A DNA stretch of 34,414 bases from Candidatus Kuenenbacteria bacterium RIFCSPHIGHO2_02_FULL_39_13 (GTDB lineage Bacteria; Patescibacteriota; Patescibacteriia; UBA2196; GWA2-42-15): positions 1 through 34,414 of the forward strand of contig MFMW01000014.1 in NCBI GenBank assembly GCA_001783595.1, read 5' to 3'. The stretch's first letter is position 1, and each line of letters opens with the position of its first letter. The position numbers were made by a program, and so were the translations under genes. The notes beneath the pieces are model-generated. The model had not been told where the DNA came from, did no database searches, and was given only the letters and a program-made list of their open reading frames with translations. This document shows, one piece after another, positions 484 through 23,378 of the stretch.

Positions 484-519
484 ATTTGTTATTTTTGTAA
501 TCTTTACGTCAAACAATAA

Positions 520-561
520 CAGCGCAGCAAGGGGCTGCCAGCTGGCAGAAGGCCTTTTTTT
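520..561 (+). repeat. Dispersed intergenic repeat, copy 1 (core only)
   Basis: The core reads CAGC..CGCAAGGGGCTGCCAGC and continues TGGCAGAAGGCC plus a T-run. It contains a perfect 14-bp palindrome CTGCCAGCTGGCAG at 535-548. The same core recurs at 1491-1531 and, diverged, at 2130-2166. Each copy lies downstream of one ORF and upstream of the next. The hairpin followed by a T-run could act as a terminator for higBA. This copy lacks the flanking homology that copies 2 and 3 share. Confidence 0.8.
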
Positions 562-4985: not shown

Positions 4986-5014
4986 TTGATTTTTTCTTTT
5001 AATCTTGGCATAAT
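4986..5014 (+). promoter_or_regulatory. valS promoter (leaderless)
   Basis: TTGATT, a 17-nt spacer, CATAAT. The -10 box ends 7 nt before the ATG at 5022. The TTG that the ORF track uses as a start codon (4986) is in fact the first half of the -35 box. Confidence 0.75.
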
Positions 5015-5021
5015 AGAAGAT

Positions 5022-7520
5022 ATGGATTTACCCAAGGCATACATTCCAAAAGAATACGAAGATAAAATTTATAAAAAATGGGAAGATTCCGGATATTGCA
5101 ACCCGGATAATTTAGAGACGCGCGGCCAAGCGCGGTCTTTTACTATTTCCATGCCGCCGCCCAATGCGACCGGCGTATTGCATGTTGGTCATACCTTAGG
5201 GATCACCATCCAAGACATTATGGCCAGATACCGTCGGATGCGGGGGGATAAAACACTGCTCTTGCCCGGCACTGACCACGCGGCAATTGCCACGCAAAAT
5301 GTGGTGGAAAAAATGCTAAAAAAAGAAGGAACTTCAAGACATAAGTTGGGCAGAGAAAAATTTCTAGAGCTGACAAAAAATTATGTAGAAAAAAATAAGT
5401 CAACCATAAATAACCAAACGAGAAAAATGGGCGCCAGTTGCGATTGGTCAAGGGAAGCTTATACTTTAAGCGACAAACTTTCGCGCGTGGTGTCAATGCA
5501 ATTTAAACAAATGTATGATGATGGCTTGATTTATCAAGGGACAAGAATTGTTAATTGGTGTCCCAGATGCTGCTCAACCCTGGCTGATGATGAGGTGGAA
5601 TATAAAGAACAATCAGCTAAACTGTATACTTTTAAATATTCAAATGTTTTTCCCTTGGCCATCGCCACCACCAGACCTGAAACCAAACTGGGCGATACCG
5701 CGGTAGCAGTTAATCCTAATGATAAAAGATACCAAAAATACATTGGCAAAACATACCAGGTTGATTTTGTGGGCGTGCCTTTAAAACTAAAAGTAATTGC
5801 TGAAAACGAGATCAATCCTGAATTCGGCACAGGCGCGGTTGGAGTAACTCCGGCTCATTCTTTCGCGGACTCGCTCATGGCTGAAAAAAATAATTTAGAA
5901 GTTAAAAAAGTAATCGGGCAGGATGGAAAAATTCTAGCCGGGTTTGGTAAATATTCTAATTTGAAAACAAAAGAGGCGCGGGAAAAAATTATTGAAAAAT
6001 TAAAAAGTGACGGGCTTTTAGAAAACCAGGCGGACATTAAAAATAATTTATCAATCTGTTATCGCTGCCACACGGAAATTGAACCGCTCCCCTCTTTGCA
6101 ATGGTTTGTGGCAATGAATAAAGAATTTGCCCTAAAAAATCCTGCTTTAATTAAAAAATACGGCAAAAAAGAAACAACCTTAAAAGAAATCTCGCTTTGG
6201 GCTGTCAAGTCGGGCGAGATAAAAATAATCCCTGAATATTTTGCAAAAACATATTTTCATTGGATGGAAAATTTGCGCGACTGGTGTATATCAAGGCAGC
6301 TTTGGTTCGGGCATAGAATACCTGCGTGGTATAAAAACAATGAAATTTATGTTGGTTCAGATAAACCAAAAAACAGTGGCTGGGTGCAAGATGAAGATAC
6401 ATTAGACACTTGGTTCTCGTCTGCACTGTGGACATGGTCAACGTTACTTGAGAGAAAAAATTTTGAAAAATTTAATGATCTCAAAGAGTGGGTCAAAAAT
6501 AGCCCGGACATAAAAAATTTCCATCCGACTTCAGTTATGGAAACAATGCACGATATTTTGTTTTTCTGGGTAGCAAGAATGATTATAATGACCCTATATT
6601 CTTTAAATGAAGTACCTTTTAAAACGGTTTATCTACATGGCATGGTATGTGATGAACACGGTAAAAAAATGAGTAAATCGCGTCCAGAAACATGCATTGA
6701 GCCCATTGAAATGTCCCAGAAATATGGCACTGATGCCTTGCGACTTTCTATGGTCTTGAGTAATGCGGCTGGTAATAGCACGCGGCTATCTGAACAAAAA
6801 ATTGCCGGCTTTAGAAATTTTGCTAACAAACTGTGGAATATTGGCAGATTTATTCAACTATCAACAAACAACAAACAACTAACAACAAACGATAAATTAA
6901 CCACTGATAGTTGTGAGTCGTCAGTTGTGAGTTGTAAAACTCTTGCTGATAAATGGATTACTAGTAGAATAAATAATCTTATTAAAGAAGTGACTGATGA
7001 TCTTGAAAATTTTAGGTTTGGTTTGGCCGGAGAAAAATTATATGATTTTACTTGGCATGAATTAGCTGATTGGTATGTTGAGATAGCTAAAATACCCCCC
7101 TACGGGGGATCCGCCGAAGTGGGACAAAATTCTTACAAAATCTTGATTTTTATTTATAAAACACTGCTTAAACTAGTGCATCCTTTTGCTCCTTTTGTGA
7201 CTGAAAAAATCTGGGAGTATTTCGGCAACGGCGATTTATTAATAATTGAGAAATGGCCTCAAACAGATGAGAAAAAAATCACTGGCCAAGCAGAGCAAGA
7301 CTTTGAACTGATAAAAGAATTAATTACTGCCATTCGATCTTGGAGGAAAGAAAATAAAAAAGAACCTAAAGAGATTCTAAAAATTCAAATAGCAGCACCT
7401 GATAAACTAGTTGGGTCACAAAAAGAAATAATAGATAAATTAGCTAAGGTGGATTTGGAAATCGTAGAGAAATTAGTTGATAAAGATTTAGAGATTGGGA
7501 ATTTAAAAATTAAGTTTTAA
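5022..7520 (+). CDS. valS: Valine--tRNA ligase
   Basis: Charges tRNA-Val with valine in the cytoplasm. The class I signatures are clear: PPPNATGVLHVGH (HIGH motif, residues 54-57) and GKKMSKS (about 548-553). The editing (CP1) domain lies between, with ATTRPET and GTGAVGVTPAHS. A zinc-like pair CPRC and a later CYRC are also seen. I start at ATG 5022 (832 residues) because this begins MDLPKAYIPKEYED as family members do, and a promoter ends 7 nt upstream. The protein stops where a C-terminal coiled-coil arm would begin in typical bacterial ValRS, so that arm seems absent. Two palindromic DNA inserts interrupt the anticodon-binding region in frame (6855-6945 and 7095-7125). Confidence 0.96.
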   Translation: MDLPKAYIPKEYEDKIYKKWEDSGYCNPDNLETRGQARSFTISMPPPNATGVLHVGHTLGITIQDIMARYRRMRGDKTLLLPGTDHAAIATQNVVEKMLKKEGTSRHKLGREKFLELTKNYVEKNKSTINNQTRKMGASCDWSREAYTLSDKLSRVVSMQFKQMYDDGLIYQGTRIVNWCPRCCSTLADDEVEYKEQSAKLYTFKYSNVFPLAIATTRPETKLGDTAVAVNPNDKRYQKYIGKTYQVDFVGVPLKLKVIAENEINPEFGTGAVGVTPAHSFADSLMAEKNNLEVKKVIGQDGKILAGFGKYSNLKTKEAREKIIEKLKSDGLLENQADIKNNLSICYRCHTEIEPLPSLQWFVAMNKEFALKNPALIKKYGKKETTLKEISLWAVKSGEIKIIPEYFAKTYFHWMENLRDWCISRQLWFGHRIPAWYKNNEIYVGSDKPKNSGWVQDEDTLDTWFSSALWTWSTLLERKNFEKFNDLKEWVKNSPDIKNFHPTSVMETMHDILFFWVARMIIMTLYSLNEVPFKTVYLHGMVCDEHGKKMSKSRPETCIEPIEMSQKYGTDALRLSMVLSNAAGNSTRLSEQKIAGFRNFANKLWNIGRFIQLSTNNKQLTTNDKLTTDSCESSVVSCKTLADKWITSRINNLIKEVTDDLENFRFGLAGEKLYDFTWHELADWYVEIAKIPPYGGSAEVGQNSYKILIFIYKTLLKLVHPFAPFVTEKIWEYFGNGDLLIIEKWPQTDEKKITGQAEQDFELIKELITAIRSWRKENKKEPKEILKIQIAAPDKLVGSQKEIIDKLAKVDLEIVEKLVDKDLEIGNLKIKF
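6855..6945 (+). repeat. In-frame palindromic simple-repeat insert in valS
   Basis: Arms CAACTATCA (6855-6863) and TGATAGTTG (6905-6913) enclose AACAAACAAC-type repeats; GTTGTGAGT-type complements follow. It is translated as a Thr/Asn/Ser-rich stretch (QLTTNDKLTTDSCESSVVSC) in the linker between the catalytic core and the ADKWI helix of the anticodon domain. The boundaries are approximate. Confidence 0.65.
7095..7125 (+). repeat. Second short GC-rich insert in valS
   Basis: CCCCC-TAC-GGGGG hairpin followed by CGCCGAAGTGG (7112-7122), an 11-mer also present in the insert in the first glgA (11479-11489). It is translated as PPYGGSAEVGQ in an otherwise alignable helix-loop of the anticodon-binding domain. 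It is much richer in GC than the surrounding gene. Confidence 0.6.
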
Positions 7521-7564
7521 TAAAAATTTATACACCAAAAAAGATGAGCTTCTAACTTAAATTA

Positions 7565-7840
7565 TTAAGCTCTGGTATTGGGACCACCAACTTTTCTCCC
7601 AGAATTTTCTCTTGGAAAAGGTTTTTCCTGTTTACCAGCTAAAAAATAATTTCTTAACTGCTCGCCTTCTCCGCGCCAAATTTCTGCTTCTTTTTTATTT
7701 TGCTCTCTCTTAGATACATTTTGCTCAGCAACTTGTTGAGATTCTTTTTGAATTTGTTTAATCTTTTTAGAATTTAAATCAACGGGTAATGTATTATTCA
7801 TTGGAAAACATTCTAGGCTGTGTTCTTGTCCTCTTCTCAT
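7565..7840 (-). CDS. Small hydrophilic protein of unknown function
   Basis: A possible gene of 91 residues, or 78 if translation starts at Met14 (MNNTLPVDLN). It is highly charged and Gln/Lys/Glu-rich. The middle (KKIKQIQKESQQVAEQNVSKREQNKKEAE) is predicted helical or coiled coil, and the tail is Gly/Arg/Pro-rich (RENSGRKVGGPNTRA). There are no membrane segments or cysteine clusters. It lies convergent to valS and just downstream of comM on the same strand, with a 27-bp gap. No ribosome-binding sequence or clear leaderless promoter is seen for either start. No opposing ORF covers it, and the composition looks like a real protein, but no family is recognised. Confidence 0.5.
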   Translation of the reverse strand: MRRGQEHSLECFPMNNTLPVDLNSKKIKQIQKESQQVAEQNVSKREQNKKEAEIWRGEGEQLRNYFLAGKQEKPFPRENSGRKVGGPNTRA

Positions 7841-7867
7841 ATATTCAAACGTTAGTTAATAATAATT

Positions 7868-9391
7868 TTATTCCACTTTTGCCCTGTATTGCAGAGCTTC
7901 CGCCACATGCTCAATTTTTATCTGCGCCTCACCAGCCAGGTCGGCAATAGTGCGGGCTAATTTTATTATACGATAATATCCCCTGGCTGACAAATGAAGC
8001 TGGCTCACGGCATTTTTAAGGAGTTCTTGGCTGCTAGAAGTCAGCTCGCAAATTTTCCTCACCATTTCACTGGACATTTGGCTGTTAGTAAAAATTTTTT
8101 TAGTTTTAAATCTCTCAATTTGCCTGGCGCGGGCAGCATTTACACGAACGCGAACATCAACTGACGGCTCGCCTGCTTTTAGACTAGCCAGCTTGTCCAC
8201 TTCAACTCTGGGGACTTCAATATGAATATCAATCCTATCTAGCATCGGCCCTGAAATCTTATTTTGATAATTTAAAACTTGGCTTTGGCTGCAAATGCAA
8301 TTTTTATAAGGATCGGAATAATAACCGCAGGGACAGGGATTCATCGCCGCCAATAGAATAAATTTTGCTGGGAATTCAAGAGTGCCTGAAGCGCGGGAGA
8401 TATGAATCACGCCGTCTTCCAATGGCTGGCGAAGATTATTCAAAACCGCGCGTGGAAATTCCGGGAATTCATCAAGAAATAATACGCCGTGATGGGCTAA
8501 TGAAATTTCACCGGGACGCGGCCAGCTGCCCCCGCCAACGAGAGAGACAGCTGAAGCAGTATGGTGAGGCGAGCGAAAAGGGCGGATGGTAATCAAGGGT
8601 TGGCCGCCGGGCAACAGTCCGGCGACTGAATAAATTTTAGTCACTTCCAACGACTCATCTAAAAACATTTCAGGCAAGATTGAAGGCATGGTGCGAGCCA
8701 GTAAGGTTTTGCCGCTGCCAGGGGGACCTGACATAAGAATATTATGGCCGCCGGCAGCGGCAATTTCAAGCGCCCGTTTGACCTGCTCTTGGCCTCTAAT
8801 ATGGGCCATATCAAACTGGTAAATGTTTTCACTCTCAAGGCTTACTTTTTCTTTTGGCTGGTATGGCTCAATTAATAACTCTCCGGTAAGATGTTTGACC
8901 ACTTGGCTTAAATTTTCTGCCGGATAAATTTCAATCGCTTCTATTAAACCTGCTTCAGCCGCATTCTCTACTGGTAAAAACAACCTTTTAATGCCTTGTT
9001 CACTGACCATAAGAGCAACAGAAAGCGTGCCGTTCACTGCCCGCAAATGGCCATCAAGCGCAAGCTCACCGATAAAAACACCTGTTTGATATGAATCGGA
9101 AAACTTGAATTGTTTGTAGGCAGAAAGTATAGAAAGAGCAATGGGCAGGTCATACGACGGACCTTGTTTTTTTAGGTCTGCTGGGGCTAAATTAACATTA
9201 ATTGTCCCTCGCGGCAGAGCCAAAGCAGAATTTTTAATAGCACTCTTAACGCGATATTTGGATTCTTGCACAGTATTATCAGGCAGACCAACAATGTTGA
9301 ATCTGGCCAAGCCCGACATAATGTCAGCCTCTACTTCAACCGGCTGACAGTCAAGGCCAATAACCGCGGCTGAAAGAATTTTTGAAGACAT
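7868..9391 (-). CDS. comM: YifB/ComM-family Mg-chelatase-like AAA+ ATPase
   Basis: A protein of 507 residues spanning the full YifB/ComM architecture. It has an N-terminal ChlI-like domain (MSSKILSAAVIGLDCQPVEVEADI), a central AAA+ module with Walker A GPPGSGKTLLART and Walker B-like GVLFLDEFPEF, a cysteine cluster CPCGYYSDPYKNCIC of the zinc-like type seen in this family, and a C-terminal Mg-chelatase lid domain. ComM is known in naturally transformable bacteria as a hexameric helicase that promotes branch migration during recombination of incoming DNA. That fits an organism that takes up DNA but is not proof of competence. The start overlaps the end of lspA by 41 bp on the same strand, so the two are co-transcribed. 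Confidence 0.93.
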   Translation of the reverse strand: MSSKILSAAVIGLDCQPVEVEADIMSGLARFNIVGLPDNTVQESKYRVKSAIKNSALALPRGTINVNLAPADLKKQGPSYDLPIALSILSAYKQFKFSDSYQTGVFIGELALDGHLRAVNGTLSVALMVSEQGIKRLFLPVENAAEAGLIEAIEIYPAENLSQVVKHLTGELLIEPYQPKEKVSLESENIYQFDMAHIRGQEQVKRALEIAAAGGHNILMSGPPGSGKTLLARTMPSILPEMFLDESLEVTKIYSVAGLLPGGQPLITIRPFRSPHHTASAVSLVGGGSWPRPGEISLAHHGVLFLDEFPEFPRAVLNNLRQPLEDGVIHISRASGTLEFPAKFILLAAMNPCPCGYYSDPYKNCICSQSQVLNYQNKISGPMLDRIDIHIEVPRVEVDKLASLKAGEPSVDVRVRVNAARARQIERFKTKKIFTNSQMSSEMVRKICELTSSSQELLKNAVSQLHLSARGYYRIIKLARTIADLAGEAQIKIEHVAEALQYRAKVE

Positions 9392-9812
9392 TTATATAAA
9401 TTATTATTAATATTCCTCCTGCTATCATCATATCAGCTAAATTAAAAACTGGCCAAATGTGAAGATTGATATAGTCAATTACAAAACCAAATTTGATGCG
9501 GTCAATAATATTACTGCCTGCGCCGAGAATGACAAGCCAGATTAAACTGGCTGCCAAGTATTTGCCGCCAGTCAATAATTTAATCAGCCAAATAATCAGA
9601 GCGAGGATTATTAGGGCGATAATAAAATAAAAAATAATTAAAAAATCTTTTGGAAAATTAATGCCAAAAGCTATGCCGGTATTTTTTGTGTAAGTAAGAA
9701 AAAAAGAATCTTCTATGGCTTGGTGGGAAAATAGATATTTTAATATTCTATCTATAATAAAAAAAAACAACCCCAAAACAATAATTACCCACGGTTGATT
9801 TTTGTGTGGCAT
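9351..9812 (-). CDS. lspA: Lipoprotein signal peptidase (signal peptidase II)
   Basis: A membrane aspartic peptidase of 153 residues that removes the signal peptide from lipidated prolipoproteins. Four hydrophobic segments are visible. The conserved blocks are present: TYTKNTGIAFGI (the NxGxAF motif), GAGSNIIDRI with the first catalytic Asp, and FNLADMMIAGG with the second. Length is close to the family norm (about 160). The last 13 codons overlap the start of comM, and dksA/traR lies 18 bp upstream, giving the order dksA-lspA-comM in one operon. No independent promoter is seen. A functional lspA implies lipoproteins in the cell envelope. Confidence 0.94.
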   Translation of the reverse strand: MPHKNQPWVIIVLGLFFFIIDRILKYLFSHQAIEDSFFLTYTKNTGIAFGINFPKDFLIIFYFIIALIILALIIWLIKLLTGGKYLAASLIWLVILGAGSNIIDRIKFGFVIDYINLHIWPVFNLADMMIAGGILIIIYINVFKNSFSRGYWP

Positions 9813-9830
9813 AAGACTGTGACAAATTAA

Positions 9831-10199
9831 TCAGCTTTTACTAGAAAATTTGTTTTTGCATTCAATGCAGGCGGAAGAAGTGGGACGAATTTCAAGACGA
9901 TTTTTGCTAATATCTTTTTGACAATATTTACAAACTCCGTAAGTGCCGTCTTCTATTCTTTTAAGGGTATCATTAATGTCGCGTAATTCTTTTTCCAGAG
10001 TATTTTTTACTGATACGGCATTGTCAAAACTGGCGACCTCTGACGCATTTTCGCTTGAGTGATCGCCATACTCTGGAAAAATAGTTTCATTGATTTTACC
10101 TTTCTTAAAAGTTAAATCAGCCAACTCTTGCTCAAGACGTTTTTTCTCGCTCTCTAGTTTCTCTTTAATTTTCTTTAGAAAATCTTTGTTTAATGCCAT
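9831..10199 (-). CDS. TraR/DksA-type zinc-finger protein
   Basis: A protein of 122 residues with a long N-terminal coiled coil (KIKEKLESEKKRLEQELADL) and a C-terminal four-cysteine zinc finger: CKYCQKDI, then ACIECK after RLEIRPTS. This is the TraR/DksA layout. DksA of proteobacteria enters the RNA polymerase secondary channel and works with ppGpp. Patescibacterial versions are shorter and their role is not established, so I leave the symbol blank. It is first in the operon with lspA and comM. Its own promoter is visible about 40 nt upstream (10246-10274). It could instead be one of the DksA-like proteins found next to lspA in several phyla. Confidence 0.9.
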   Translation of the reverse strand: MALNKDFLKKIKEKLESEKKRLEQELADLTFKKGKINETIFPEYGDHSSENASEVASFDNAVSVKNTLEKELRDINDTLKRIEDGTYGVCKYCQKDISKNRLEIRPTSSACIECKNKFSSKS

Positions 10200-10245
10200 A
10201 AATTTTTAGTTCTCACAAATATATTGCCACTAATTTAACACTTAT

Positions 10246-10274
10246 ATTATAACAATTCCGGCCAAATGATTCAA
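10246..10274 (-). promoter_or_regulatory. Promoter of the dksA/traR-lspA-comM operon
   Basis: On the minus strand TTGAAT, a 17-nt spacer, TATAAT. Transcription start near 10239 gives a leader of about 40 nt. The -35 box lies only 8 nt past the stop of the glgA-type gene. Confidence 0.65.
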
Positions 10275-10282
10275 GTAAAATT

Positions 10283-11719
10283 TTACTGAATTAATTTTTT
10301 ATATATTTTTAAATATTTTTTGGCGCTGGTGGCCCAAGAAAAATCTTTTTTCATAGAATTTCCAACCAACCTTAGCCATTCCTGTTGATTGCAATATACA
10401 GCTAGAGCCAGCTTAATAGTTTTAAACATTTCAGAAGAATTATATTTTTTAAAACTAAAGCCGCTGTCTCTTTTAACTGTATCAGCTAAACCGCCGGTGG
10501 AGCGGACAATGGGAATAGTGCCGTATTCCATGGCAATTAGCTGGCCAAGCCCGCACGGCTCGTATTTTGAAGGCATTAAAAACATATCTGCGCCGGCATA
10601 GATCTGATGGGCCAGTTTCGGATCAAATTTTAAATGGGCGCTAAATTTATGCTTGTAGCGCTCGTTCATTTTCTTAAAAAAATCCTCGTATTCTTTATCG
10701 CCAGTGCCAAGAATCACAAACTGCAGATTAAGCCGCATAATTTCCGCAAAGGCTTGTTTTAAAATATCAAAGCCTTTTTGCCCGGTAAGACGGGAAACCA
10801 TGGCAATGAGCGGAATATTTTTGTGCTGAGGCAGACCGCTATTTTTTTGGAGGTATAATTTATTTTTTATTTTATTATTTATTTTTTTCAAGTCGTATTT
10901 AAATTTAATGTTTCTGTCGGTGGCCGGGTTGAAAATTTCATAATCCAATCCATTGATAATGCCATATAAATCTTTTTTTCTTTGGCGTAAGATTGAAGCC
11001 ATATCATAACCGTATTCTTTGGTTAAAATTTCTTGGGCATAAGTCGGACTGACAGTACTCACTAAATCCGCGTCTAAAATTGCCTGGCGCATAAGGTTGA
11101 TACTGCCGTTTTTGATCTGATTAAAATCAGATTCTGCAAAACCAAATTTTTTCAAGATAAATAAGCTAGTCTGTCCCGTATAGCCAATATTGTGAATGGT
11201 AAAAAGTGTTTTAGTTTTACTTATCAAAGGGACAACTGCCGTTTGCCAGTCATTACAATGAATAATGTCGGGCTGCCAGTCTAGGGAATTGTCATCCAAA
11301 AGCTTTTTGATCAGCAGGGAAAAAGTGATAAATCTTTCGCGCTCGGACTGATCAAAAATATTTTTGGCTCGAAAAATTTTATGGTCAATAAAATAGATTG
11401 GTACGTCGGATTTTGGTAAATTTGACTGATAAATATTTATTTTATATTTTTTCCCGCCTACGCTAAAGCTGCCTCCTTCGCCGAAGTGGCTACGAAGGCC
11501 GAGTCGGCGGGCATGAATCTGCGGATAATTCTTTTTTATACTGGAATAATACGGCATGACAACGCGAATGTCCGCTCCGAGATTTTTCAGCGCTTTGGGC
11601 AAACTGCCGGCGACATCGCCCAAACCGCCCAACTTAAAAAACGGCGCGCATTCATAAGAGGCAAAAAGAATTTTTAGCTGTTTATTTCTATGGCGATTTT
11701 TTATTCTAAAAATTGGCAT
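10283..11719 (-). CDS. glgA: Glycogen/starch synthase (GT5), first copy
   Basis: Transfers glucose from ADP- or UDP-glucose to a growing alpha-1,4-glucan. It has 478 residues in a GT-B fold. The N-terminal donor/acceptor loop is KLGGLGDVAGSLP (from about residue 29), followed by IIHCNDWQTA and LFTIHNIGYTG. The C-terminal domain has SRLTGQKGFDIL and the KYEPCGLGQLIAMEYGTIPIVRSTGGLADTV block with the catalytic Glu. It differs substantially from the second copy at 15276, so it is a paralogue rather than a recent duplicate. A 59-bp GC-rich palindromic insert encodes RRLGLRSHFGEGGSFSV near residues 70-86. It is the last gene of the GH57-kinase-GT4-glgA run. Eight consecutive Gs (Cs on the coding strand) lie 21 bp upstream of the start. 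Confidence 0.93.
   Translation of the reverse strand: MPIFRIKNRHRNKQLKILFASYECAPFFKLGGLGDVAGSLPKALKNLGADIRVVMPYYSSIKKNYPQIHARRLGLRSHFGEGGSFSVGGKKYKINIYQSNLPKSDVPIYFIDHKIFRAKNIFDQSERERFITFSLLIKKLLDDNSLDWQPDIIHCNDWQTAVVPLISKTKTLFTIHNIGYTGQTSLFILKKFGFAESDFNQIKNGSINLMRQAILDADLVSTVSPTYAQEILTKEYGYDMASILRQRKKDLYGIINGLDYEIFNPATDRNIKFKYDLKKINNKIKNKLYLQKNSGLPQHKNIPLIAMVSRLTGQKGFDILKQAFAEIMRLNLQFVILGTGDKEYEDFFKKMNERYKHKFSAHLKFDPKLAHQIYAGADMFLMPSKYEPCGLGQLIAMEYGTIPIVRSTGGLADTVKRDSGFSFKKYNSSEMFKTIKLALAVYCNQQEWLRLVGNSMKKDFSWATSAKKYLKIYKKLIQ
11453..11511 (-). repeat. In-frame palindromic insert in the first glgA
   Basis: 59 bp bounded by CCCGCC and GGCGGG. Inside is a second stem, GCCTTCG against CGAAGGAGGC, around CACTTCGG. 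It contains the 11-mer CGCCGAAGTGG (plus-strand orientation), shared with the insert at 7112-7122 in valS. It is GC-rich in an AT-rich gene and falls between conserved blocks of the GT5 N-terminal domain. Confidence 0.65.
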
Positions 11720-11739
11720 AAATACAAAATTATTTATTA

Positions 11740-11747
11740 GGGGGGGG
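11740..11747 (+). other. Eight-G homopolymer upstream of the first glgA
   Basis: A run of eight Gs (C8 on the coding strand) in the 56-bp gap between the GT4 stop and the glgA start. It could fall in the spacer of a weak promoter (TAATTT ends 7 nt before the ATG) and so be a candidate slippage site. No comparative data are available here. Confidence 0.4.
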
Positions 11748-11775
11748 TTTTTACTGGCTAGTTAGAAATAATTGA

Positions 11776-15163: not shown

Positions 15164-15176
15164 AGAATTAAGAGAC

Positions 15177-15285
15177 AAAGCTCAATAAACAATAAGCAAA
15201 GGGCAATAAATAATAAGCAAAGAAGATATTTATAAAAGATACTTTGTTTATTGTTTATTGCTTATTGAGCTTTGTTTATTGCTTG
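15177..15285. repeat. Heptamer-type inverted repeat between glgA copy two and the GH57 gene
   Basis: The arms AAAGCTCAATAA (15177-15188) and TTATTGAGCTTT (15262-15273) are perfect complements. Both sides continue as CAATAAA/CAATAAG units, so the arms extend imperfectly to about 30-45 nt. The left part is intergenic. The right part includes the stop of glgA copy two (KNGNKQ, stop at 15276). It could form a long AT-rich hairpin in the transcript between the two genes. Confidence 0.75.
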
Positions 15286-16772: not shown

Positions 16773-16775
16773 AGA

Positions 16776-17243
16776 TTATTTACTATTCGCGCAAGTAATG
16801 GCGACGGCCAAAGCATCAGCCGCGTCGTCGGATTTGATGGTTTCACTTAAGTTTAAAATCACTTTAACCATCTGCTGAATCTGGTTCTTATCCGCCCGGC
16901 CATAACCAGTTAGCGCTTGTTTTATCTGCAGCGGGGTGTATTCATAGATGAGTAGTTTACTTTGCATGGCAGTGGTGAGAATTACTCCGCGGGCTTCGCC
17001 GACCTTCAGGGCGGTTTTGACATTTTTGCAAAAAAATAACTCCTCAACTGCCAGGATATCCGGCTTATATTTTTTTATAATTTTTTTCAGTCCTCGGGCA
17101 ATCGTAGCCAACCTTTCCGGATGCTTATTTTTCGGACTAGTTAATATACAGCCTGAAGCAATTAATTGCAAGGTTTTATTTTTATCTTCTAAAATTCCAT
17201 AACCGACGATTGCTACGCCAGGATCAATGCCAAGAATTTTCAT
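16776..17243 (-). CDS. ruvC: Crossover junction endodeoxyribonuclease RuvC
   Basis: A protein of 155 residues, normal for RuvC, which cleaves Holliday junctions bound by RuvAB. The four acidic catalytic residues are in place: D7 in GIDPGVAIVGYG, E67 in LAVEELFF, and D140 and D143 in SDDAADALA. The basic LTGYGRADKNQIQ block is also typical. It follows yebC after 17 bp, an order common in bacteria. The downstream neighbour, however, is a glycogen synthase 3 bp away instead of ruvA/ruvB. The N-terminus at ATG 17243 matches the family exactly. Confidence 0.96.
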   Translation of the reverse strand: MKILGIDPGVAIVGYGILEDKNKTLQLIASGCILTSPKNKHPERLATIARGLKKIIKKYKPDILAVEELFFCKNVKTALKVGEARGVILTTAMQSKLLIYEYTPLQIKQALTGYGRADKNQIQQMVKVILNLSETIKSDDAADALAVAITCANSK

Positions 17244-17260
17244 AGAATAAGGATAAATTC

Positions 17261-17968
17261 TTATTTCAAATTAGTATAATAATCGCTCACCTCATCAAGC
17301 TCATCAAGGCTGCCTAAAATTTTGGACACTTTGGCCAGTGTTTCATTATCAATATCTTTTGGATCTTTAGCAACCATCTCAAGGCCAGCCGAATCTATTT
17401 TAACTCCTGAATTTTCTAATTTTTCTTTAACTGATTTCAAATCTTCTGGTTTGGTATAAACAGTCATTCCCTCTTCATCTTCTGAATAATCATCTGCCCC
17501 TGATTCTATAATTTTCATTTCCAACTCATCTTGCTGTCTGTTAATTTTAATCACTCCTTTATTCTCAAATTGCCAAGAAATGCTATGTAGATCAACAAAC
17601 TGGCCGCCATTTTTAGTAATGGCAGTTTTGACATCAGCCAGAGCCCTATTTTTATTATCTGACAGGCATTTGATAATGACAACAACTTGGCCTGGCAGCA
17701 GTGCTCCATAAGTAAGGTCTTCAATCGCCGCTCCTTTTAATTCGCCAGTGCCACGTTTGATGGCGCGCTCAATATTGTCTTTGGGCATATTAACGGACTT
17801 GGCGCGCTCAATGGCTAAGCGCAGCTTAAAATTAGCCTCGGGGTCTGCCCCGCCCTCTTTGGCAGCCATAGTAATGGTATTGCCAAGTTTAGTGAAAATA
17901 TTACCGCGCTGGGCATCTTTGGATTCTTTAGCTCTTTTAATTGTGGCCCATTTAGAATGTCCGGACAT
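17261..17968 (-). CDS. yebC: YebC/TACO1-family protein
   Basis: A protein of 235 residues, full length for the family. It begins MSGHSKWATIKRAKESKDAQRG, the hallmark N-terminus, followed by FTKLGNTITMAAKEGG and NIERAIKRGTGE. The family has been described as transcriptional regulators and, for TACO1 and some bacterial members, as factors that help ribosomes on difficult sequences; I do not choose between these. It is first in the yebC-ruvC-glgA unit and divergent from rplS, with about 94 bp between the starts. A possible promoter on the minus strand is TTGCCT-N18-TATAAG, giving a leader of about 10 nt. Confidence 0.96.
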   Translation of the reverse strand: MSGHSKWATIKRAKESKDAQRGNIFTKLGNTITMAAKEGGADPEANFKLRLAIERAKSVNMPKDNIERAIKRGTGELKGAAIEDLTYGALLPGQVVVIIKCLSDNKNRALADVKTAITKNGGQFVDLHSISWQFENKGVIKINRQQDELEMKIIESGADDYSEDEEGMTVYTKPEDLKSVKEKLENSGVKIDSAGLEMVAKDPKDIDNETLAKVSKILGSLDELDEVSDYYTNLK

Positions 17969-18026
17969 CTATTTTTAAATTAATTCTTATATTAAGCCTA
18001 TCATTTTTAAGGCAAAAAATCAACTA

Positions 18027-18055
18027 TTGACAGCATTTTAAATCTAGGCTAGACT
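18027..18055 (+). promoter_or_regulatory. rplS promoter (leaderless)
   Basis: TTGACA, a 17-nt spacer, TAGACT. The -10 box ends 7 nt before the ATG of rplS, with no room for a ribosome-binding site. Confidence 0.75.
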
Positions 18056-18062
18056 GTATTTA

Positions 18063-18449
18063 ATGACTGAAAAAAACGAAGCCAAACAAAAGTATAAGCC
18101 AGAAAAAATTAAACCCTCCTCTCCGGCGGGCAAGCTGTCTGAACTACGTTCTGGCATGACTGTTCGGGTGCATGAAAAAATAAAAGATATTGATGCTAAG
18201 GGAAAAGAAAGAACAAGGATTCAGGTTTTTGAAGGAATAATTTTGGCGGTCAAAAAGCTGAAAAGCCCATCAGGCACAATTTTAGTTAGAAAAATTTCTG
18301 ATAATAACATTGGGGTAGAAAAGATTTTCCCAATTCATTCCCCATTGGTAGATAAGGTTGAGGTGCTGAAGGAAATTAAAACCAGACGAGCTAAACTATA
18401 TTTCTTGCCTAGCTACAAGAAGAGATTGAAATTAAAGAGAAAAAGTTAG
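18063..18449 (+). CDS. rplS: 50S ribosomal protein L19
   Basis: A protein of 128 residues. The core is LRSGMTVRVHEKI, RIQVFEGIILAVK, VEKIFPIHSPLVDKVEVLK and RRAKLYFL, the standard L19 order near the 30S-50S interface. There is an N-terminal extension of about 20 mostly charged residues (MTEKNEAKQKYKPEKIKPS) and a basic tail KKRLKLKRKS. It is transcribed alone from a leaderless promoter, divergent from yebC, and ends at an AT-rich hairpin upstream of tRNA-Leu. The usual neighbours trmD and rpsP are not here. Confidence 0.95.
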   Translation: MTEKNEAKQKYKPEKIKPSSPAGKLSELRSGMTVRVHEKIKDIDAKGKERTRIQVFEGIILAVKKLKSPSGTILVRKISDNNIGVEKIFPIHSPLVDKVEVLKEIKTRRAKLYFLPSYKKRLKLKRKS

Positions 18450-18456
18450 GAAATAA

Positions 18457-18484
18457 TTGAATTTTTTTTAAATTATTGTATAAT
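18457..18484 (+). promoter_or_regulatory. Promoter of tRNA-Leu
   Basis: TTGAAT, a 16-nt spacer, TATAAT. Transcription would begin near 18491, about 30 nt before the mature tRNA end. Confidence 0.65.
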
Positions 18485-18486
18485 AG

Positions 18487-18515
18487 AAGTGATCTTAATT
18501 GATCACTTTTATTAT
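18487..18515 (+). terminator. Possible terminator of rplS
   Basis: AAGTGATC-TTAATT-GATCACTT stem-loop followed by TTATTATTATTT. It lies between the tRNA -10 box and the tRNA. The tRNA transcript probably starts within the left arm and so would not form the whole hairpin. Confidence 0.5.
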
Positions 18516-18522
18516 TATTTAC

Positions 18523-18604
18523 GCGGATGTGGAGAAATTGGTAAACTCGCAGCCTTGAGGTGGCTGTGCCTTCGGGCTTGGGGGTTCAACTCCCCCCATC
18601 CGCA
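18523..18604 (+). tRNA. tRNA-Leu (anticodon GAG)
   Basis: An 82-nt class II tRNA. The acceptor stem GCGGATG pairs with CATCCGC, discriminator A. D arm GAG..CTC, anticodon arm CAGCC-TTGAGGT-GGCTG with anticodon GAG (reads CUC/CUU), long variable arm GCC-TTCG-GGC, T arm GGGGG-TTCAACT-CCCCC. CCA is not encoded. The supplied 118-residue ORF over this region is spurious. Confidence 0.95.
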
Positions 18605-18699
18605 TTTGTTTATAGAGGTTTCCCCCTGCTGGGGATGTCTGTCCCTTCGGGACATCTACCGAGGGTATGACCGCAGGGACACAACTCCTCTCATCCGTA
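18605..18699 (+). repeat. Structured spacer ending in a copy of the tRNA-Leu 3' end
   Basis: Contains several stems: TCCCC/GGGGA, and TGTCCC-TTC-GGGACA. It ends in AACTCCTCTCATCCGTA (18683-18699), which matches the tRNA 3' end AACTCCCCCCATCCGCA (18588-18604) at 14 of 17 positions, 95 bp apart. No matching acceptor 5' strand is present, so it is not a second functional tRNA. It could be a decayed tRNA duplicate or the scar of an insertion at the tRNA end. Confidence 0.45.
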
Positions 18700-18749
18700 C
18701 CAAACTCTTTTTAATCGTTTCCCAGACAATTCGCCTTTCTTGTAAATAT

Positions 18750-18802
18750 TTAATGGACAAATATGGTAGTGCATTGACATATTTGTCCAGTAATGCTATA
18801 CT
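18750..18802 (+). promoter_or_regulatory. Promoter and large inverted repeat (probable operator) of the DUF4143 ATPase gene
   Basis: Promoter TTGACA (18774-18779), a 17-nt spacer, TATACT (18797-18802), 8 nt before the ATG. Inverted repeat arms TTAATGGACAAATAT (18750-18764) and ATATTTGTCCAGTAA (18779-18793) match at 14 of 15 positions with a 14-nt centre. The right arm covers the promoter spacer, so a bound dimeric protein would block RNA polymerase. Confidence 0.7.
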
Positions 18803-18810
18803 GATAATAT

Positions 18811-19989
18811 ATGATAAAACGACAAATTTCCAAACAAATTCTTAAATATCTTAAACAATACCCTGTAATATCACTGACGGGCCCAAGACAATCAGGAAAA
18901 ACAACCTTGGTTAAAAATATTTTTCCTAAAATGGATTATCTTAATCTTGAAGATATTGAAACTAGAGATTTTGCCATGCGCGACCCGAAGAGTTTTTTGG
19001 GTAACCACCCAAACGGCCTTATTATTGATGAATCACAGCGAGTACCTGAATTAATGTCGCAGATACAGATAATAGTGGACGAAAAGAAAGTACCAGGTCA
19101 GTTTATCCTAACGGGATCACAAAATTTTCTTTTAATGGAAAAAGTCAGCCAATCTTTAGCTGGCAGGGCGGCTATTTTAAATTTGCTGCCCTTTTCCCTG
19201 CTTGAATTGGAAAAAGCGAATATTAATTTAAGCGGGGAATTGGAAGAAATTTTGCTAAAAGGTTTTTACCCAAAGTTATTTGATCAAAAGATAGAGATTA
19301 AAAATTATTATTCAAACTATATTCAAACCTATATTGAAAGAGATGTGCGAACGCTAAAAAATATTGCTAATCTCAATACTTTTAAACGTTTTTTGGATTT
19401 ATGCGCCGGCAGGTGCGGACAGATATTGAATTATTTTTCTCTGGCACAAGATTGTGGCATTGATCAAAAAACAGCTAAAGAATGGGTATCAATTCTAGAA
19501 GCCAGTTTTATTATATTTTTGCTGAGGCCGCATTATAAGAATTTCAATAAAAGAGTAACTAAGATGCCAAAATTATATTTTTACGATACAGGACTTGCTT
19601 GCTCGCTTTTAAATATTTTAAACAAAAAACAGTTGAGGGATCATTATTTGAAAGGCGGCTTGTTTGAGTCGTTTGTTATTTCTGAATTTTATAAACACAA
19701 ACTAAATTTAGCTGAAAGGCCTAATTATTATTTTTGGCGCAATAAAACAGGTAATGAAGTAGATTTGATTATAGAAAAAGCAGATAAATTAATACCATTG
19801 GAAATAAAAGCCGGCAAAACGATCAGCCAGGAATATTTTAAAGGATTAAATTATTTTAATAAATTATCAGGCAATAATCCTAAAAATTCTTATGTTATCT
19901 ACGCTGGCGATCAAAAGCAAGTGGGATCCAGCGGCAATGTTTTCAGCTGGCACAGCCTGCCAGCAGAGTTAGATAGAATAGACCGATAA
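18811..19989 (+). CDS. AAA_14/DUF4143 ATP-binding protein
   Basis: A protein of 392 residues. The N-terminal AAA domain has Walker A LTGPRQSGKTTLVK, Walker B GLIIDESQRVPEL and sensor FILTGSQNFLLM. The C-terminal DUF4143 domain has YIQTYIERDVRTLKNI, FYDTGLACSLL, and the PD-(D/E)XK-like tail YFWRNKTGNEVDLIIE and PLEIKAGKTI. The tail pattern resembles a nuclease fold (E-V-D then E-x-K), though DUF4143 activity is unproven. These proteins are common, often multi-copy and frequently exchanged between genomes. The gene appears leaderless. The large inverted repeat over its promoter suggests repression, possibly by itself, although no obvious DNA-binding domain is seen in the protein. Confidence 0.9.
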   Translation: MIKRQISKQILKYLKQYPVISLTGPRQSGKTTLVKNIFPKMDYLNLEDIETRDFAMRDPKSFLGNHPNGLIIDESQRVPELMSQIQIIVDEKKVPGQFILTGSQNFLLMEKVSQSLAGRAAILNLLPFSLLELEKANINLSGELEEILLKGFYPKLFDQKIEIKNYYSNYIQTYIERDVRTLKNIANLNTFKRFLDLCAGRCGQILNYFSLAQDCGIDQKTAKEWVSILEASFIIFLLRPHYKNFNKRVTKMPKLYFYDTGLACSLLNILNKKQLRDHYLKGGLFESFVISEFYKHKLNLAERPNYYFWRNKTGNEVDLIIEKADKLIPLEIKAGKTISQEYFKGLNYFNKLSGNNPKNSYVIYAGDQKQVGSSGNVFSWHSLPAELDRIDR

Positions 19990-20023
19990 AATTGTCGTCT
20001 TTTAAATGTGAATTAGAATAAAT

Positions 20024-20052
20024 TTGCATTTTTTTCATTATTTCTGTAATAT
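20024..20052 (+). promoter_or_regulatory. Possible promoter of the purB-like gene
   Basis: TTGCAT, a 17-nt spacer, TAATAT. Transcription start near 20059 would give a leader of about 95 nt that includes a terminator-like hairpin (20081-20117). Confidence 0.4.
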
Positions 20053-20080
20053 AACAATAGAATAAAAACAAAATAACAGG

Positions 20081-20117
20081 AGCAAGTTGGAGGACTTGCT
20101 TTTTGGTTTTTTAAAAA
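20081..20117 (+). terminator. Terminator or attenuator hairpin before the purB-like gene
   Basis: AGCAAGT-TGGAGG-ACTTGCT followed by TTTTGGTTTTTT. It may end the ATPase transcript or, if the promoter at 20024 is real, attenuate purB. The loop and right arm, TGGAGGACTTG, nearly duplicate the Shine-Dalgarno region TGGAGGAACTTG in front of the gene. Confidence 0.6.
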
Positions 20118-20154
20118 AATTTGAAATCTAAATATTAAAATGGAGGAACTTGAC

Positions 20155-21615
20155 ATGGAAAGTACAGCGATGGATAAAATTTTAAATTTGACAATGCCTG
20201 GGCATTTGAGATACCAGCCTAGGGGATTACAACCTTATTTTGGCTATGACATATTATATGTCACTACCTGCGAAGTAGAAATAGCTACCTTGCGTGTTCT
20301 CGGTGATATTGGCGTCATACCAGCAGAGGATCTAAAACAATTAACAGATGAGGTTATTAAAAAGGTTTTAAAAATCACCACGACTGAAATTGATAGGATT
20401 GAAAGAGAAATAACGAAACATGATATCAGAGCACTGGTGAGAAAAATCCAGGAGATTATCCACTATTCGCTTGCAAGATGGACCCATATACCATTAACGA
20501 GCTATGATGGGCTTGATACAGGCAGAATTTTGCAATTTCAAAGAGCCTATAGCCAAGTATTAAAGCCATCAATAATTCAAGTTGTGGAATGGCTTTCAGA
20601 AGTTATTATTAAATTTGCAGACCAGATACAAATTGGCAGAACACATGGCCAGCATGCGCTACCTATCACTATTGGCTTTTGGCTGGCTACTGTTCTTAGT
20701 AGAATCCTTTATAATTGGGAAAAAATGGATTCATATGCCTCACAATTGGTTGGTAAAATCTCAGGAGCAGTTGGAGCGCATAATGCACAGTTAGGTCTCG
20801 GTTTTGAAAACTTATGTGGTGGTAAATCTTTTGAGGAAAGGGTTTTGGAAAAATTGGGTTTAAAACCAGCTCGTATCAGTACTCAAATTTTACCACCTGA
20901 ATATATAGCCTATTTTCTTTATGCCTGCCAAATGTTATCTGCTTCTTTTGGACAATTGGGACGGGACTGTAGGAATCTTATGAGAACTGAAATATCGGAA
21001 ATAGCCGAGGCATTCGAATCTGGACAAGTCGGATCTTCTACAATGGCACATAAAAGAAACCCAATTAACTTTGAGCAGCTGGAAGGTATGTGGTTGAAGA
21101 ACAAAAATGAATTTGGCAAAGTTCAAGATACCCTTATAAGCGAGCACCAAAGAGATTTAGTCGGGAGTTGCGTAGCTCGTGATTTTCCAATAATTCTCAT
21201 TAACCTACAAACACAGTTGAATACCCTCTTAAGAAAGAATGATTCCGGTGAACCATTTATCAAGAGAATTACTGTTAATGCGGGTTCATGTTGGAAAAAT
21301 TTTAAAATGAGCTCTCATCTGATTTTGTCCGAACCTTTGTATATTGCTATGCAAATGGCTGGTTACAGCGGAGATGCACACCATTTTGTCAACCATACGC
21401 TCGTGCCAGAATGCCAAAAAAGAGAATGTAATCTAATTGATGCCTTTGAAATGATGGCTGAGGAAGATCTAGAATTAAGGAAAACACTTAAACGCATTCC
21501 AAAAGAGGTTATAGAATTATTACACCATCCTGAAAAATATACTGGGGATGCTAAAAAAAAGGCACTGGCAATGGTAAAAATTGGCAAAAAACAAATTAAA
21601 AAACTAGCAGCATAA
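20155..21615 (+). CDS. purB: Adenylosuccinate lyase-like protein (fumarase/aspartase superfamily)
   Basis: About 486 residues. Superfamily blocks: TSYDGLDTGR, IGRTHGQHALPITIG, and the signature GSSTMAHKRNPINFEQLEG, where the usual Pro of SSxMPxKxNP is Ala. This fits PurB-type lyases, which release fumarate from SAICAR and adenylosuccinate; the substrate is not proven. I start at ATG 20155 because GGAGG lies 8 nt upstream; the track's ATG at 20140 overlaps that ribosome-binding site. The strong Shine-Dalgarno and longer leader differ from the leaderless neighbours, and no other purine genes are in the window, so horizontal acquisition is plausible. A strong terminator follows. Confidence 0.82.
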   Translation: MESTAMDKILNLTMPGHLRYQPRGLQPYFGYDILYVTTCEVEIATLRVLGDIGVIPAEDLKQLTDEVIKKVLKITTTEIDRIEREITKHDIRALVRKIQEIIHYSLARWTHIPLTSYDGLDTGRILQFQRAYSQVLKPSIIQVVEWLSEVIIKFADQIQIGRTHGQHALPITIGFWLATVLSRILYNWEKMDSYASQLVGKISGAVGAHNAQLGLGFENLCGGKSFEERVLEKLGLKPARISTQILPPEYIAYFLYACQMLSASFGQLGRDCRNLMRTEISEIAEAFESGQVGSSTMAHKRNPINFEQLEGMWLKNKNEFGKVQDTLISEHQRDLVGSCVARDFPIILINLQTQLNTLLRKNDSGEPFIKRITVNAGSCWKNFKMSSHLILSEPLYIAMQMAGYSGDAHHFVNHTLVPECQKRECNLIDAFEMMAEEDLELRKTLKRIPKEVIELLHHPEKYTGDAKKKALAMVKIGKKQIKKLAA

Positions 21616-21648
21616 ATCTTGAAAGGAGAGAGAGTTATGAAATTAGCA

Positions 21649-21685
21649 AAACGCCAAACAGAGATTGAGGTTTGGCGTTTTTATT
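21649..21685 (+). terminator. Strong terminator after the purB-like gene
   Basis: Perfect 11-bp stem AAACGCCAAAC/GTTTGGCGTTT with a 10-nt loop, followed by TTATTTTG. Confidence 0.9.
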
Positions 21686-21713
21686 TTGTTTTACTATATT
21701 TTAGGGCTATAAT
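21686..21713 (+). promoter_or_regulatory. Promoter of the DUF2079 gene (leaderless)
   Basis: Perfect -10 TATAAT (21708-21713) ending 6 nt before the ATG; weak -35 TTGTTT 16 nt upstream. Confidence 0.55.
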
Positions 21714-21719
21714 GGATAT

Positions 21720-23378
21720 ATGGAAAAATACTATAAAAAAATATTGTGGTTAGCTATAGTCTTGTATGTGGTGGTTTTCTCATTAGTTTCAATTTACAAA
21801 TACACGCATTTTCTGTATAACGGCATTGATCTGGCAATTATTAATAATGTTTTTTGGAATACGGTTCACGGCCATTGGTTTTGGTCAAGTATTCAGGGAC
21901 ATTCATACTTGGGCGACCATTGCTCGCCAATCCTAATTTTATTATTACCAGTTTATTTCTTGTGGCAATCGCCACTACTGCTTTTAATCCTGCAAAGTGT
22001 TTTTCTCGGTCTGGCCGCTTGGCCAATCTATAAAATAGCCTCAAAAATACTTTGTCATTGCGAGGAGGAGCAAAGCGACGACGTAGCAATCTCGCTACGA
22101 GAAGCAACTTTAACGGGATCGCGACGCCCCCCGCAGTCGCGGGGTCCTCGCGATGACAGTAAAACCTTAGCCCTAGCTATTGCCGTCTTATGGCTGATTA
22201 ATCCACTAACTCATAATATTAATCTGCATGAATTTAGTTTTATAAGTCTTTTGCCTCTTGCCTTTTTTACATTATTTTATCTGTATTTGCGATTAGAAAA
22301 AGAATCTAGAAATAAAAAATTGTTGCATTGCTTCATTGTTACATTGCTGATATGCTTAGCCATTCGCGAAGATATTGCTTTTATAATTTTAATATTTAGT
22401 TTAATTATTTTATTTAACTTACGACAAACGACTTACGACAAACGACTTACAACAAACAACTTACGACATCGTGTATTATTAGTTGTTAGTTGTTTGTTAT
22501 TGAGTATTGCTTGGCTTTTTGTCTCCCATAAAATAATCTCTGCTCACTCTCCTTCTGGGTTTACACCATTTGCTTATTATTACAGCTGGCTCGGCTCGGC
22601 TGGCAGCAGCGCTATTGCGGCTCATATTTTAAGTTACAAAAATTTGGAAATGATAGTCGGCTTTTTGCTGCCTTTTTTATTTATCCCGCTGATTAAACCC
22701 AAATGGCTGCTGTTAGCTTTAATCCCCTTGGCACAGATTATACTTTCAGCTAGCGGCGGCGGTGCCCAAGTTTTTATGATGCATTACGGGGCATTGTTTT
22801 TACCGGCGCTAGTCATCGCATTTATTTTTGGATTTCATCGGGCAAATCAATTTATTAAAGATAAATTAAAATCAAAATATCTGTTGCTGGTCTGCTTAAT
22901 GGTAACAAATATTTTTTTGTGGGTTGATTTTGGAATTTTTAAAAAAGAAATTTATCCTGAACGAAGCGAATTGTCAAACACACGGCAGGCTAATGTTAAT
23001 GAGACATTTAAATCCGTTGTAATCCAGGATAAAACTGCCAGTATTCTGGCCAGTTATCGCTTTCTGGCTAATTTATCAAGCAGAGAAAATATTTATGCGC
23101 TTCATTACTATTTTTTGGGCGTGCAACAATTTGCCCAGGGACCGTATACATTAAATAAAAAGCCAGAATATGTAATTCTGGATAAAAATGATCTGCTCGA
23201 TTTTGAAAAAAATCTTAAGAACTCAAAATGGGCTGGAAAATATTATGAAAACGGCCAGCAAGGGTTAAGAGAATTATTAAAAGATTATGGAGTGGTTGAT
23301 TTTCAAGCTGATGTGGTTTTATTTAAAAGAGGATATAAGAGCGAGATTAAACTGGATGAACTTAATTTGGATTGGTAA
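21720..23378 (+). CDS. DUF2079 polytopic membrane protein
   Basis: A protein of 552 residues with about nine to eleven membrane segments. The N-terminal block YNGIDLAIINNVFWNTVHG ... SYLGDHCSPILILLLP is the DUF2079 signature, a family related to GT-C glycosyltransferases. The C-terminal soluble part (YVILDKNDLLDFEKNL ... LLKDYGVV) is typical. Activity is unknown; transfer of a sugar from a polyprenol phosphate is the usual guess. Three repeat-type DNA inserts lie in frame: a hydrophilic loop CHCEEEQSDDVAISL... (22054-22157), an HCFIVTLL stretch (22326-22349) and RQTTYDKRLTTNN (from 22417). The 3' end overlaps the convergent GT39-like gene by 17 bp with no terminator between them. Confidence 0.85.
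   Translation: MEKYYKKILWLAIVLYVVVFSLVSIYKYTHFLYNGIDLAIINNVFWNTVHGHWFWSSIQGHSYLGDHCSPILILLLPVYFLWQSPLLLLILQSVFLGLAAWPIYKIASKILCHCEEEQSDDVAISLREATLTGSRRPPQSRGPRDDSKTLALAIAVLWLINPLTHNINLHEFSFISLLPLAFFTLFYLYLRLEKESRNKKLLHCFIVTLLICLAIREDIAFIILIFSLIILFNLRQTTYDKRLTTNNLRHRVLLVVSCLLLSIAWLFVSHKIISAHSPSGFTPFAYYYSWLGSAGSSAIAAHILSYKNLEMIVGFLLPFLFIPLIKPKWLLLALIPLAQIILSASGGGAQVFMMHYGALFLPALVIAFIFGFHRANQFIKDKLKSKYLLLVCLMVTNIFLWVDFGIFKKEIYPERSELSNTRQANVNETFKSVVIQDKTASILASYRFLANLSSRENIYALHYYFLGVQQFAQGPYTLNKKPEYVILDKNDLLDFEKNLKNSKWAGKYYENGQQGLRELLKDYGVVDFQADVVLFKRGYKSEIKLDELNLDW
22054..22157 (+). repeat. In-frame palindromic element in the DUF2079 gene
   Basis: 104 bp bounded by GTCATTGCGAGGA and TCCTCGCGATGAC (one mismatch). 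Inner stems are GTAGC/GCTAC and CGCGAC/GTCGCG. It is GC-rich and read in frame as about 35 hydrophilic residues between two membrane segments. The outer sequence resembles dispersed 'CATTGCGAGGAG' elements familiar from Rickettsiales and some Patescibacteria, recalled from general knowledge rather than searched. Confidence 0.8.
22326..22349 (+). repeat. Imperfect 8-bp tandem repeat in the DUF2079 gene
   Basis: CATTGCTT, CATTGTTA, CATTGCTG in a row, read as part of a hydrophobic segment. It may be a third, smaller insert in the same gene. Confidence 0.4.
22417..22500 (+). repeat. 14-bp tandem repeat and imperfect palindrome in the DUF2079 gene
   Basis: ACTTACGACAAACG is present twice exactly, then as ACTTACAACAAACA and a partial unit, followed by GTTGTTAGTTGTTTGTT-type sequence complementary to the repeats. 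The reading frame stays open although 14 is not a multiple of three. Its word type resembles the first insert in valS. Confidence 0.75.

Follow-up and report, generated by a model that had tools for sequence, protein, structure and literature searches.

We analyzed a contig of 34,414 nucleotides (here called the window) from the draft genome of Candidatus Kuenenbacteria bacterium RIFCSPHIGHO2_02_FULL_39_13 (G000; 717 kb in 34 contigs, 88% complete, 38.8% GC; the window is its contig 14), in which short repeat DNA lies in frame inside three protein-coding genes: valS, glgA, and a gene for a predicted membrane protein with a DUF2079 domain. The sole congener used for comparison was another draft genome (G001; 662 kb, 72 contigs); the two were compared with each other over their full length, and the gene order of the window matches that of contig 40 of the congener. 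Genes were called with a simple hexamer model, and the three host genes were named through their Pfam domains. The repeats were sorted into GC-rich segments (class A), inverted dimers of repetitive extragenic palindromes (REPs) tagged with TGTC or CGTC (class B), and heptamer arrays (class C), and are located as follows.

4986 to 7517, forward strand: valS, valyl-tRNA synthetase (ValRS; Pfam tRNA-synt_1 and Anticodon_1), host of two segments
6855 to 6941, forward strand: valS1, class C segment 1, with heptamers AACAAAC/AACTAAC at 6854-6890 and inverted-arm heptamers AGTTGTG at 6909-6935
7095 to 7127, forward strand: valS2, class A-like GC-rich segment CCCCCCTACGGGGGATCCGCCGAAGTGGGACAA; its place in the loop is taken in the congener by a TAATTAC heptamer array
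10283 to 11719, reverse strand: glgA, starch/glycogen synthase (Pfam Glyco_transf_5), host
11453 to 11515, reverse strand: class A segment of 63 nt in glgA, with arms CCCGCC...GGCGGG and containing CCGCCTACGCTAAAGCT
15170 to 15280, no strand assigned: intergenic class C copy made of AATAAACAATAAGC heptamers and inverted arms
21720 to 23375, forward strand: gene of the DUF2079 predicted membrane protein (Pfam DUF2079), host of three repeat segments
22053 to 22158, forward strand: duf1, class B inverted REP dimer with CGTC/TGTC tags, TGTCATTGCGAG...GCAAT followed by ATCGC...CTCGCGATGACA; absent from the congener
22322 to 22349, forward strand: short period-8 array CATTGCTTCATTGTTACATTG, with kin copies elsewhere in the genome; the congener is two codons shorter
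22417 to 22498, forward strand: duf2, class C segment 2, with an ACTTACG/ACAAACG array at 22417-22468 and an inverted arm TTAGTTG at 22479-22498

Five of these segments (two in valS, one in glgA, and duf1 and duf2) had been singled out by an initial annotation made from the sequence alone, and all of them were confirmed in place, with reading frames open through every one. The same annotation had overlooked the period-8 CATTGNTT array of the DUF2079 gene (ca. 22322-22349) and the intergenic heptamer hairpin at 15170-15280. Orthologues without the segments exist in the congener, where four of the five are extra codons missing from the same sites and the fifth, valS2, corresponds to a replaced loop. 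The glgA insert amounts to 21 codons, and its site is cleanly empty in the congener; the DUF2079 protein carries ca. 32 extra codons at duf1 and 16 at duf2. Purifying selection flanks every segment in all three host genes (ratio of nonsynonymous to synonymous divergence, dN/dS, 0.07 to 0.30), and therefore the hosts are maintained; the values are 0.15 before, 0.07 between, and 0.25 after the segments of valS; in glgA, they are 0.11 on one side of the segment and 0.25 on the other.

valS is the only full-length ValRS match in the genome (the remaining matches are ca. 29% identical). Its first segment, whose translation contains STNNKQLTTNDKLTTD, is nine codons longer than, and unlike, the counterpart KDIKDIGDIKDI of the congener; the peptide QLTTNDKLTTDSCESSVVSCK exemplifies what such inserts are predicted to encode. 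The second is seven codons longer than in the congener, and the adjoining residues differ too. An AlphaFold model of the protein (832 residues, from 27 sequences) had a mean predicted local distance difference test score (pLDDT) of 88.4 and fell below 50 in two stretches only, residues 619-634 (window 6876-6923) and 695-697 (window 7104-7112), both inside the inserts and each modeled between helices. The in-frame inserts appear to be translated as extra peptide of low order. The congener has, at another place in valS, its own insert of 30 codons, in which AATTTCC repeats are combined with the hairpin CCCCGACCGGATCGGGG. That same place, after the HRIPAWY motif, is occupied in the ValRS of the relatives L159 (263-3823), L158, L160, L162, L166, L170, and L173 by a whole histidine-phosphatase-like domain (His_Phos_1 of Pfam at 2.5e-26 in L159, RHG-type motif recognized by eye in the others, in a second loop in L170). 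The enzymes of L165, L168, L172, and L164 have a domain of ca. 105 residues inserted in this loop or one nearby, ASCH-like by eye (KTYRLRDHG...), to which a Pfam search of the L165 protein gave no name. Incidentally, synonymous divergence (dS) from the congener is 0.29 over the first 624 codons of valS and ca. 1.05 beyond, a sharp change along the window that may reflect recombination with a more distant lineage.

All this might be explained by chance resemblance: the segments would be variable loops of the ordinary kind, or artefacts of assembly, that happen to look like repeats. Both valS sites are indeed variable loops also in the Thermus thermophilus ValRS (1GAX), the first of them a linker, and the source genome is a draft in 34 contigs. 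Inverted-repeat ends or tandem words had been attributed to all five segments, and this held in part: valS1 and duf2 are period-7 arrays, and duf1 folds far better than dinucleotide shuffles (z -3.6), as does, to a lesser degree, duf2 (z -2.3), but the energies of valS1 (z -1.15), the glgA segment (z -0.75), and valS2 (z -0.12) were no better than shuffled. The anomaly of the last two therefore lies in their base composition and not in a palindromy provable from a single copy. However, a genome-wide survey speaks strongly against chance. Among 452 gene pairs of the two genomes, we found 65 well-flanked in-frame indels of at least eight codons, and 60% of a strict set (21/35) contained a dispersed repeat, a strong hairpin, or a period-7 array; among matched coding controls, the share was 11.5% (Fisher p ca. 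3e-11). The inserts were also richer in GC. Folding energy, copy number, and period were adopted as measures because a simple score of short-loop inverted repeats separated inserts poorly (20% versus 4%). Besides, insert peptides of at least six residues were common to six pairs of unrelated genes (null mean 0.02, maximum 2 in 1,000 draws), namely, PDKSLGG, KPARNAS, PAGDPP...NLAE, NFQFPI, NKQLTT, and QLTTND, a recurrence that does not cover the class B copy of the DUF2079 gene itself. A good example is ALPDKSLGGQ in an RsmH-like gene of the source genome and ASPDKSLGGP in a different gene of the congener, each encoded by 30 nt of inserted DNA, the site of which is empty in the other species. 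As a phylum-wide element, the PDKSLGG palindrome was discarded (2 of 287 genomes), while CCTGCCCGNAATGC, of the KPARNAS family, was present in 25 of 192 genomes (control, 0). Together with the multicopy dimers at empty sites and the period-7 specificity described below, and with the same phenomenon in the independently assembled congener, this leaves chance or artefact with almost no credibility.

The dozens of related copies expected by the initial annotation are indeed present elsewhere in the genome, and so are the two or more classes of element that it had claimed. Class B is the clearest case of multiplication. Compact inverted dimers of TGTCATTGCGAG...GCAAT number 13 in the source genome (93 to 134 bp) and one in the congener, and at 11 of these 13 sites, a single contig of the congener matches both flanks and lacks the element; such lineage-specific multiplication, with empty sites, is what we observe for REP-type elements. 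DUF2079 is the only conserved gene with an internal dimer. The pattern GTCATTGCGAG-N6..30-GCAATC was found in 63 of 287 Patescibacteria genomes (reversed control, 0) and in many further phyla, including a Rickettsia endosymbiont. The tag is TGTC in the copies of the source genome, with one CGTC, and among 111 copies from other bacteria, 58 had CGTC and 53 TGTC (the search pattern itself fixed the TC). In aligned dimers, the stem begins with complementary AT (ATTGC...GCAAT or ATCGC...GCGAT), and the tail, most commonly CCA in other bacteria (47/111), is mostly CCC or CTC here. Judging from these tag and tail statistics, class B seems to fit the superfamily of CGTC-tagged REPs. A second family with the form of CGTC-tagged REPs consists of 15 mostly intergenic segments of TGTCATCCTCGGGCTTGACCCGAGGATCCAG and TGTCATTCCCTTGCTTGACAAGGGAATCCAG hairpins on contigs 5, 30, and others of the source genome (for example, 12511-12663 of contig 30), with one pair in the congener. 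The only Y1 transposase of the source genome (IS200-like; contig 17, 43521-44352, locus L001) was considered as mobilizer of class B and rejected, as it is flanked by GGCTCC hairpins found only there and not by TGTC elements. A solo copy of the joined GGCTCC ends lies just upstream of this gene, a small REPtron-like unit confined to that site.

Class C behaves differently. Counting arrays of periods 4 to 15, we found 33 of period 7 in the source genome (other periods, 0 to 3) and 41 in the congener (others, 0 to 7); a size-matched Markov control gave none. Period 7 was also the commonest in 48 loci of relatives and in 80 of other bacteria, while the CAATAAG array, tried as a phylum-wide marker, appeared in only 2 of 287 genomes; the array units are lineage specific and the period general. 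About one-third of the arrays lie inside genes, among them valS, TruB, Elp3, PriA, a family 2 glycosyltransferase, and PGK, and there they occupy their stop-free reading. Several loops hold different repeats in each species. In TruB, a TAATTAG array of the source genome contrasts with the PAGDPP...NLAE palindrome of the congener; in Elp3, QLTTN words of the former contrast with NFQFP/ITNYK words of the latter. The arrays may grow locally rather than jump. Some are identical in both species and therefore not all are recent. In both, TTATTGC arrays (G000 contig 7, 284-318; G001 contig 10, 16187-16221) are read as one and the same membrane-like stretch, LLLIAYCLLLIA, and two more membrane proteins have similar ones. 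This bears on the possibility that the insert peptides are useful, i.e., that repeat insertion supplies new protein segments kept by selection (domestication), such as the TTATTGC membrane segments with their repeated LLLIAYC. Its best cases are that array, read as NNKNLLLIAYCLLLIAV identically in the two species, and the heptamer arrays conserved between them in two further genes; besides, any in-frame heptamer array encodes a peptide periodic in seven residues (21 nt make seven codons). Yet most inserts are species specific, of low predicted order, and placed in loops with different repeats in each species, and conservation between two species may reflect shared ancestry alone, so that we regard domestication as an unlikely explanation.

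The GC-rich segments comprise several distinct palindromes, and those of ACAAAC type are heptamer arrays; hence, the single mobile family proposed initially was not borne out, although in-frame repeat DNA, many copies, empty orthologous sites, and several classes all were. The glgA insert has 67% GC, far above the genome as a whole. Over the 17 nt of CCGCCTACGCTAAAGCT, it is identical to members of a hairpin family that occurs across the phylum, in 35 of 145 genomes (reversed control, 0). The outer arms of this family covary, with 6 of 14 distinct two-change arms compensated compared with ca. 4% expected by counting, a result that is only indicative because the arms were chosen by a two-mismatch search. 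valS2 is placed provisionally in class A by its appearance. The 11-mer CGCCGAAGTGG, said to be common to two segments, is exactly shared by the glgA segment and valS2 and has no other exact copy in the source genome, but it does not serve as a family mark, being about as frequent phylum-wide as its reverse.

Hop elements (byps), found in some yeast mitochondria, are GC-rich hairpins in AT-rich genes, and some of our inserts have a similar look. A ribosome- or RNA-level process could accordingly skip them, so that they would never reach the protein. However, skipped inserts need be neither a multiple of three in length nor free of stops, as is the case of byps, whereas frame-breaking or stop-carrying inserts were nearly absent from conserved genes (seven candidates, most of them single-base shifts), and the genic heptamer arrays sit in a stop-free reading. 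This near-absence is predicted by selection for translation and not by ribosome skipping, which we consider highly improbable.

The explanation that we find most likely is that repeats insert or expand blindly and that selection retains the in-frame, stop-free copies as passengers in tolerant loops. There would be two sources of short repeat DNA. On the one hand, REP-type hairpins, best seen as the ca. 100-bp TGTC-tagged inverted dimers (REPIN-like), would copy themselves to new sites by a transposition that perhaps proceeds via a single-stranded hairpin. On the other, period-7 arrays, for which we observe a strong preference for this period and different units at the same loops in two species, would appear at many sites and drift there, slippage or template switching being the probable cause. 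Insertion would be blind to genes and most copies in coding DNA would be lost, the survivors being those with a length of 3n and no stops, in surface loops, in linkers, or between membrane helices; some older inserts, common to both species, may have become fixed parts of proteins. Several points weigh against this account. No transposase was tied to any of the repeat families, no clear target-site duplication was seen, and neither the glgA segment nor valS2 has a significant second copy in the source genome. Also, some arrays are, as said, identical in the two species, and we infer the translation of the inserts from sequence evidence. More tentatively, and with considerable doubt, we suggest that in Patescibacteria, heptamer arrays and REP-type palindromes are a continuing source of new segments of essential proteins, with the same loops recolonized by different repeats and some (TTATTGC, LLLIAYC) fixed as membrane segments.

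Similar situations are known in other bacteria. The parallel with Rickettsia palindromic elements (RPEs), drawn already by the initial annotation, turned out to be close, since one segment would belong to the CGTC-tagged REP superfamily, which includes RPE-4 and RPE-6, the intragenic repeats of this kind in R. conorii (PMC3733652). RPEs, too, are palindromes read in frame within essential genes that are unrelated to each other, and one peptide recurs among different proteins; RPE-4 and RPE-6 share the CGTC/TGTC tag with class B, the tie at the DNA level being only the tag link made in PMC3733652. TruB, which carries RPE-1 in R. conorii (PMC3733652), is a repeat host in both of our genomes as well. 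Here, however, the phylum is another one, several unrelated palindrome classes are present, heptamer arrays share the role, and just one class B dimer lies within a conserved gene. CGTC-tagged REPs in general have a CGTC, TGTC, or CCTC tag, a stem of 8 to 9 bp starting with AT, loops of 4 to 5 nt, and a tail that is mostly CCA (Di Nocera et al. 2013, PMC3733652). Class B resembles them in tag, AT-start stem, inverted dimers, mostly intergenic and occasionally genic location, and lack of a dedicated transposase; it differs in the CCC/CTC tail of the source genome and in that many hairpins are longer. REPINs, inverted REP doublets of ca. 100 bp as the multiplying unit (Bertels and Rainey 2011, PMC3116915), would be the nearest mechanistic analogue for class B, but they are of the GTAG/RAYT type (RAYT, REP-associated tyrosine transposase), and no cognate RAYT gene with that REP at its flanks was found in the source genome. 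As for class C, the TAACTGA arrays of Beggiatoaceae are also tandem 7-bp units with variants, mostly intergenic with some sets inside open reading frames, and 7 nt was cited there as the commonest long repeat unit (PMC4679880). Unlike them, class C has many different units per genome, often with inverted arms, and several of its arrays are in the middle of enzymes, within essential genes, and not at the ends of reading frames.

In the openly licensed literature that we searched, no description of in-frame repeat inserts in Patescibacteria was found, although one may exist elsewhere, and a search for the class B word returned unrelated papers only. Protein-coding palindromes are best known from Rickettsia, several bacteria are reported to have genic REPs, and wider occurrence was deemed conceivable in a 2024 review (PMC10969869). 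The two genomes, congeneric and streamlined, document the process on either side of a single split: there are empty sites, peptides shared among inserts, and the same loops with one repeat replaced by another. On this basis, one can test, in a bacterial group that is among the largest, an old question: are such inserts neutral passengers, or do they provide raw material for the evolution of proteins? It should also be noted, as a warning, that a long insertion in a Patescibacteria protein is not necessarily a domain and may consist of repeat DNA.

Finally, at the left end of the window (505-560, 1455-1578, and 2094-2217), there are two to three copies of another repeat of 56 to 124 nt, with the core GCAAGGGGCTGCCAGCTGGCAGAAGGCCTTTTTT and a terminator-like appearance.
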